5,930 nucleotides of DNA, from positions 1 through 5,930 of the forward strand of contig JANTFF010000055.1 of NCBI GenBank assembly GCA_024763575.1, read 5' to 3'. How positions within the stretch are numbered: position 1 is the first letter of the stretch; each line of letters starts with the position of its first letter. This DNA comes from Sulfurovum sp. GTDB lineage: Bacteria > Campylobacterota > Campylobacteria > Campylobacterales > Sulfurovaceae. Shown here one piece after another: positions 2,442 through 3,026 of the stretch. The notes beneath the pieces are model-generated. The model searched no databases. It was given only the letters and a program-made list of their open reading frames with translations, and had not been told where the DNA came from. Both the position numbers and the translations under genes were made by a program.

Positions 2442-3026
2442 ATATAGAGGATTTCTCTCATCTAACTCTTTTTTTATTTTTGTAAATTCATAAGTAAATT
2501 CTGTATCATATCTATAACCTCTATCTATTTTAATTTCATTAAATTTTAAAAATTTTTCTAATTTATCTTATTTCCAATTAAGATATTCTATATTTTCATT
2601 ATCTTGTAATCTTAGATTTGCTGTATTTTTATCTCTAATATTTAATCTACTATCTCCAATAAATATGCCTCGTAAGAACTCCCCATAGCTACCATTGATA
2701 GTTTCTCTGTATTTTGATACTAATTTATCAGAAAAAGTTAGCTCTTTTGCCTCTTTCCAACCACTATTGGTTAAAATTTTATGATTTGGAGTACATGTAA
2801 ATCCAAAACGACCTCTTCCATCTATAGATGTTGTCTGAATATGTATAAAATCACTTCTGTTTTCTACTTTTCCATTATCATGCCAATCGACTATTGGTTT
2901 TATTTCTATATTTTTAGTCTCTTCATTTATACAATAAACATCACCTGAAATTTTCTTATCTACAACTTCCCCAATAGGAATAGCTCTTCCATCTACAAAA
3001 TTTACAACTGTATCATAATGAAAACA
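1959..3026 (-). mobile_element. RecA intein with LAGLIDADG homing endonuclease domain
   Basis: This is an in-frame protein-splicing element of 356 codons inserted after Gly204 of RecA. Splicing residues are complete: Cys1 (TGT at 3024-3026, block A CFHYDTVVNF), block B TCTPNHKIL with His82, block F around KFDISIKDNKNYMIGG, and block G NGVIVHN with penultimate His355 and terminal Asn356. Ser is the +1 nucleophile. This is the canonical class 1 arrangement. Between blocks B and F lies a DOD-type endonuclease with two dodecapeptides: FLRGIFIGDSRL (117-128, Asp125) and SLAIWYMDDGHY (205-216, Asp212/Asp213). The second Gly-Asp-Gly of the first motif reads GDS. The stop at codon 153 falls between them. 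The insertion point, loop L2 just before PETTTGG, matches the RecA-b site known from mycobacterial recA inteins as I recall it. Hand-counted blocks at 2281-2340 and 2461-2520 have 10 and 12 G/C of 60. Extein blocks at 3181-3240 and 1681-1740 have 25 and 20, so the intein is more AT-rich than its host gene. Confidence 0.93.
2568..2570 (-). other. In-frame TAA inside the recA intein
   Basis: On the minus strand the reading is ...TAT CTT AAT TGG AAA TAA GAT AAA TTA GAA..., that is YLNWK-stop-DKLEKF. It lies at intein codon 153, after the first LAGLIDADG motif and well before the second. A single base change would turn it into a sense codon. TTA (Leu) fits the amphipathic pattern WK-L-DKLEKF best, and AAA, GAA, CAA, TCA or TAT/TAC are also one step away. 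The following base is G, and there is no obvious readthrough signal. Confidence 0.95.

Follow-up and report, generated by a model that had tools for sequence, protein, structure and literature searches.

A stop codon within the recA intein of a Sulfurovum assembly is best read as a private change, probably a base-call or consensus error

The analysed window, 5,930 nucleotides long, is an entire contig (C55) of a 1.13 Mb Sulfurovum assembly in 237 contigs, estimated to be 69% complete. Frame translation and alignment identify a recA gene on the minus strand (3638-1536) that is interrupted by an intein of 356 residues (3026-1959). All features described below lie on this strand. The N-extein corresponds to residues 1-204 (3027-3638; positions 1-196 of the Pfam RecA profile PF00154), the intein to residues 205-560, and the C-extein to residues 561-700, which together with the normal stop span 1536-1958 and match the Pfam RecA and RecA_C profiles. 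Joining the two exteins (204 + 140) yields a predicted spliced RecA of 344 residues, the length given in the original prediction. The N-terminal splicing half of the intein (residues 205-307; 2718-3026), delimited by alignment with the relative P0008 and by matches to solved inteins, carries Cys1 and a TPNH block (TxxH), and the C-terminal splicing half (residues 516-560; 1959-2093), aligned with P0008 and with the intein-bearing RecA of G020 (a member of the genus) and G046 (from a different family of the order), ends in His-Asn and is followed by Ser, the first residue of the C-extein. The residues that matter for splicing are thus all present. Between the two halves lies a LAGLIDADG homing-endonuclease domain (residues ~308-515; 2717-2094), whose approximate edges were set by aligning the window with P0008, a mini-intein with both splicing halves at the same RecA site and no endonuclease domain. 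Two natural endonuclease-free versions of this intein were observed at that site, P0007 (561 aa) and P0008 (484 aa). Two motifs recognized by eye in the translation, LRGIFIGDS (2649-2675) and LAIWYMDDG (2385-2411), are what we take to be the LAGLIDADG motifs of the endonuclease. The insertion site, just before SPETT, is presumably the one occupied by the M. leprae RecA intein.

A search of the assembly recovered a single recA, as two pieces of the same gene, and 41 of the 42 codons that follow the stop described below occur only once in a check for a second copy. Another match, on contig C182, was rejected as a second recA, as it also fits the DnaB_C family within one 393-codon frame and is probably RadA-like. 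By E-value, the best RecA match among named records came from a metagenome genome of Sulfurovum sp. (86% over the N-terminal part), in a comparison from which the nearest records were possibly left out. Downstream of recA, in the 1479-1536 region, the window carries a 108-aa frame; enolase, which comes after recA in G002, is found here on another contig (C142).

The reading frame of this gene is closed once before its terminal stop (1538-1536), by a TAA at codon 357 (2570-2568). From this codon to the next in-frame ATG (2441-2439), which opens a 301-aa frame, there are exactly 43 codons, namely the stop and 42 sense codons (2567-2442). Both the single in-frame TAA, with the same frame on either side, and this intact spacing had been described in the original prediction and are confirmed here. 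The 343 codons after the stop match the RecA, RecA_C, and LAGLIDADG_2 Pfam profiles in the same frame, the last at 25.0 bits for a cut-off of 25, and align one-for-one with two relatives, which places the stop within a real gene beyond chance. The part after the stop also matches I-SceI weakly (E 0.006). Since the stop lies between the two LAGLIDADG-like motifs, inside the endonuclease domain, it leaves both splicing halves whole, on opposite sides of the break.

We next compared codon 357 with its counterparts in related sequences. Among the best 120 of 376 relatives, the closest were P0018 and P0019 (700 aa), P0020 (701 aa), and P0002 (565 aa), from contigs of 6,117, 6,185, 3,040, and 1,697 bases, respectively. 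Counting the stop, they differ from the window at only 8, 4, 4, and 5 residues, and all four carry a leucine at codon 357, as do the more distant and equally open genes of G020 and G046. P0018, P0019, P0020, G020, and G046 all display an uninterrupted frame from extein to extein, which the window as assembled lacks. P0019 and P0020 are identical to the window over all 356 residues before the stop, and after it differ only at residues 549, 687, and 691. At residue 549 the window has I and all four sister alleles V, at 691 the window has I and the three sister alleles reaching this position M, and the N at 687 is shared with P0002. P0019, P0020, and P0002 may derive from the same sample as the window, possibly through a separate assembly of identical reads. 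The original prediction had proposed comparing this codon in sister strains, a sense codon there pointing to an error or a private mutation, and the leucine found in every near-identical allele, as well as in G020 and G046, leads to that class. Within its broader list of possible outcomes, error and private mutation are hence retained, while readthrough and splicing in trans gain no positive support.

A private change is therefore the best reading of the stop, and we consider an error in base calling or in the consensus of this fragmented assembly to be its probable source (at roughly 60%), given among other evidence the leucine in four of four near-identical alleles, two of which (P0019 and P0020) differ elsewhere at three residues only. 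Under such an error, the change would have arisen during sequencing or assembly rather than in the cell, on top of an ordinary recA. The living gene would then make a full-length precursor, from which the intein is predicted to splice out in cis. The main rival is a real and very young nonsense mutation in a recA-null strain, which we hold to be possible but clearly less likely. The predicted product would then comprise 356 residues (RecA 1-204 followed by 152 intein residues), from which splicing is not expected. Apart from codon 357, a few residues set the contig apart from its nearest sisters, as would be the case for a genuine strain variant, and these real-looking differences mean that it could belong to a distinct strain carrying its own mutation. 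Of the four differences from P0019, three fall after the stop and none before it, and the two other residues private to the window (549 and 691) are likewise both located after it, which is the direction expected for a real stop, in numbers too small to test. Against a real mutation, the stop is found in none of the four near-identical alleles and in none of the other 119 relatives among the best 120 of 376, and the assembly contains at least one other probable error, in dnaB (see below).

Natural recA nulls are on record. In BCG Russia, a single-base insertion in recA introduces a stop at residue 140 and no RecA is made (PMC2483709). Both there and in the window, a small private change ends recA early in a gene that normally bears an intein. 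However, the BCG Russia insertion lies in the N-extein part and is backed by sequencing, loss of recombination, and absence of the protein (PMC2483709), whereas the stop in the window is a feature of the assembled sequence. With a recA null already known from an intein-bearing group, even a real null here would be no new kind of thing.

The coding sequence around the stop was examined for signs of decay. Between the window and G020, dN/dS was low in both exteins (0.034 for the N-extein and 0.037 for the C-extein), 0.22 and 0.05 in the N- and C-terminal splicing halves, and, within the endonuclease domain, 0.06 before the stop, ~0.06 (0.057) over the 42 codons after it, and 0.42 in the remainder. 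Values for the whole part after the stop exceeded those for the part before it in the window-G020 (0.113 vs 0.073) and window-G046 (0.240 vs 0.125) comparisons, and also between the two intact genes, G020 and G046 (0.179 vs 0.096). Because the intact pair behaves alike, the looser constraint belongs to the gene as such and is unrelated to the stop. With synonymous sites in the exteins close to saturation, these ratios reflect long-past constraint and cannot date the stop. We also counted residues private to the window at genus-invariant positions, relative to 14 intein-free genus members and G020, after dropping 11 of 25 genus loci in which a fixed motif was not found. There was one among 157 positions in the N-extein and three among 93 in the C-extein (Fisher p 0.15), and three of these four residues are shared with the intact sister alleles. 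For the 15 other sequences, the C-extein count was 0 in 11, 1 in three, and 10 in the divergent L032. Overall, neither the segment-wise dN/dS nor the private residues at genus-invariant positions revealed stop-related decay on either side, in agreement with the description of the gene as otherwise intact in the original prediction. To judge from these comparisons, the lack of decay is compatible with an error, with a mutation of very recent origin, or with a bypass of the stop.

Bypass by splicing in trans would require that the stop split the intein, that the downstream frame start at the ATG at 2441, and that the two pieces then join into RecA. This would amount to a split intein at birth, in which RecA is kept by trans-splicing while the endonuclease dies; we regard both the bypass and this evolutionary scenario as highly improbable. 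As judged from P0008, the stop leaves one intact splicing half on each side, and split inteins do occur in nature (PMC7765530). Like these, the window shows a break in the endonuclease domain that leaves both splicing halves, but unlike them it has no evident separate gene for the second piece, only a second frame with an undistinguished start, no distinctive ribosome site, and no second genome with the split. The ribosome-site energy at ATG 2441 is -2.9, compared to -4.6 at recA's own start, a difference that is not decisive given the -2.6 of lspA in the same window, and 31 of the 55 ATGs of the region, this one included, equal or better it. Judged from this energy, nothing points to independent translation of the downstream fragment. 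Further, the 42 codons ahead of this ATG are conserved as protein, the ATG itself is also present in the intact G020 and G046 genes, and the four near-identical alleles along with G020 and G046 are all unsplit. The claim that an intein offers no way around such a stop was nevertheless too strong in principle, as both splicing halves are whole on separate fragments, even if its expectation agrees with the lack of any sign of downstream translation.

Comparable fragments were sought in other proteins. Among eight proteins retrieved as truncated N-terminal products (lengths 196-623), the one from the window alone ends inside the intein. Ten proteins were retrieved as C-terminal products, and five of them besides the window's own frame (P0010, P0011, P0012, P0016, and P0017) have their start within such an intein and include the C-terminal part of RecA, as trans-splicing partners would, yet possibly through cuts at contig ends. 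P0010, P0011, P0012, and P0017 share at most 54% identity over the matched stretch, P0016 shares 61% over 44%, and P0011 lacks a start codon, as at a contig edge. P0016 itself (196 aa, on a 9,532-base contig), with its intein-internal start and RecA C-terminal part, could represent a split gene, a broken gene, or a contig edge.

The other form of bypass, in which readthrough or a suppressor tRNA decodes the stop as an amino acid at a rate sufficient for RecA function, appears slightly less likely still. It would account for the absence of decay after the stop, but no stop-reading anticodon was detected among 29 tRNAs, a result weakened by the 69% completeness of the assembly (ARAGORN was run on 13 of 29 tRNA loci, and overlapping stretches gave the 29 distinct tRNAs). 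In addition, TAA is a working stop here, as other genes of the window end in it (e.g., 2-709 and 5608-5096), and in the sister alleles there is no stop that would call for readthrough. Even taken jointly, trans-splicing and readthrough are very unlikely, and neither has positive support.

The plausibility of an error also depends on how often the assembly breaks other genes. A coding-potential scan of the window and 60 of the 237 contigs (403,017 bases; 371 gene-like ORFs) yielded 22 junctions, five of which had a start at least 14 codons away (the window, L161, L185, L184, and L195), and five late-start frames (the window, dnaB at L168, L161, L165, and L181). The stop in the window headed both lists. 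Closer inspection covered the window, L161, L185, and dnaB, and of these dnaB was the one further housekeeping break identified. L184 and L195 exceeded other frames in coding potential by margins of only 0.01 and 0, respectively, and L185 is antisense to another frame. At L161 (~10005 on the minus strand of G000:C8), the end of a transposase-like frame abuts, by eye, a second one truncated at its N-terminus, as would result from the insertion of one element into another. In dnaB, on contig C15 (L168, ~9190-9200), the frame shifts in an A-run after the N-terminal domain, ~150 bases from the contig end, leaving 168 codons compared to open frames of 481-831 codons in four relatives, and no other dnaB copy was found in the assembly. 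DnaB is essential in the bacteria studied, hence this break is most simply explained as an error, and an assembly error is its probable cause. With such a break in an A-run near a contig end, gene-breaking errors are probable in this assembly.

A homology scan that drew 693 reference ORFs from 60 G025 stretches, with the contigs bearing recA and dnaB added on purpose, scored 84 conserved genes and flagged four: two alignment overruns at gene ends, recA, where the flag is due to the intein that G025 lacks, and dnaB. An earlier round, with 40 stretches and 65 scored genes, had brought up just the two overruns. The recA flag aside, dnaB is thus the only true break among the 84 genes scored, which weighs against an error in recA, as does the nature of the change: the recA stop is substitution-like and lies mid-contig, whereas the dnaB break is located at a contig end. 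Gene-breaking errors therefore probably exist in this assembly but are rare, and as a result the assembly evidence favors an error only modestly over a real private mutation.

Among the best 120 of the 376 relatives found with an intein query, 119 cover the whole query, and the window's own product is the only one that does not. Within the genus, 7 of 34 genomes, including G000, matched the first part of the intein at E 0.001 or better, with strong matches in G000 and G020 only and weak ones in long frames elsewhere in the other five; five genus genomes had no RecA match at all, and some carriers could thus have been missed. The RecA of G046 (L122; G046:C190:18000-24500) contains two inteins in one open frame, the second in the Walker A stretch after GPESSGK, and in its copy of the window-site intein Ser replaces the His ahead of the final Asn. 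Relative to L121 and L122, synonymous differences were lower in several intein segments (1959-3026) than in the exteins. For the window-G046 pair, pS was ~0.45 in the N-terminal splicing half and 0.43 in the endonuclease part after the stop, compared to 0.68 and 0.60 in the exteins, with a less clear value of 0.54 in the short C-terminal splicing half. Such differences would fit a transfer of the intein between lineages that postdates the divergence of the hosts. We found no literature joining inteins, recA, and Sulfurovum.

Of the readings considered, a split intein is the only one that would be bold, and positive support for it is lacking. If the stop is an error, one altered consensus position in a metagenome assembly can mimic a lineage that is recA-null, and such false stops can be exposed by near-identical alleles from protein collections. 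If it is real, an environmental Campylobacterota population would harbor a recA-null allele, or an intein would have begun to split.
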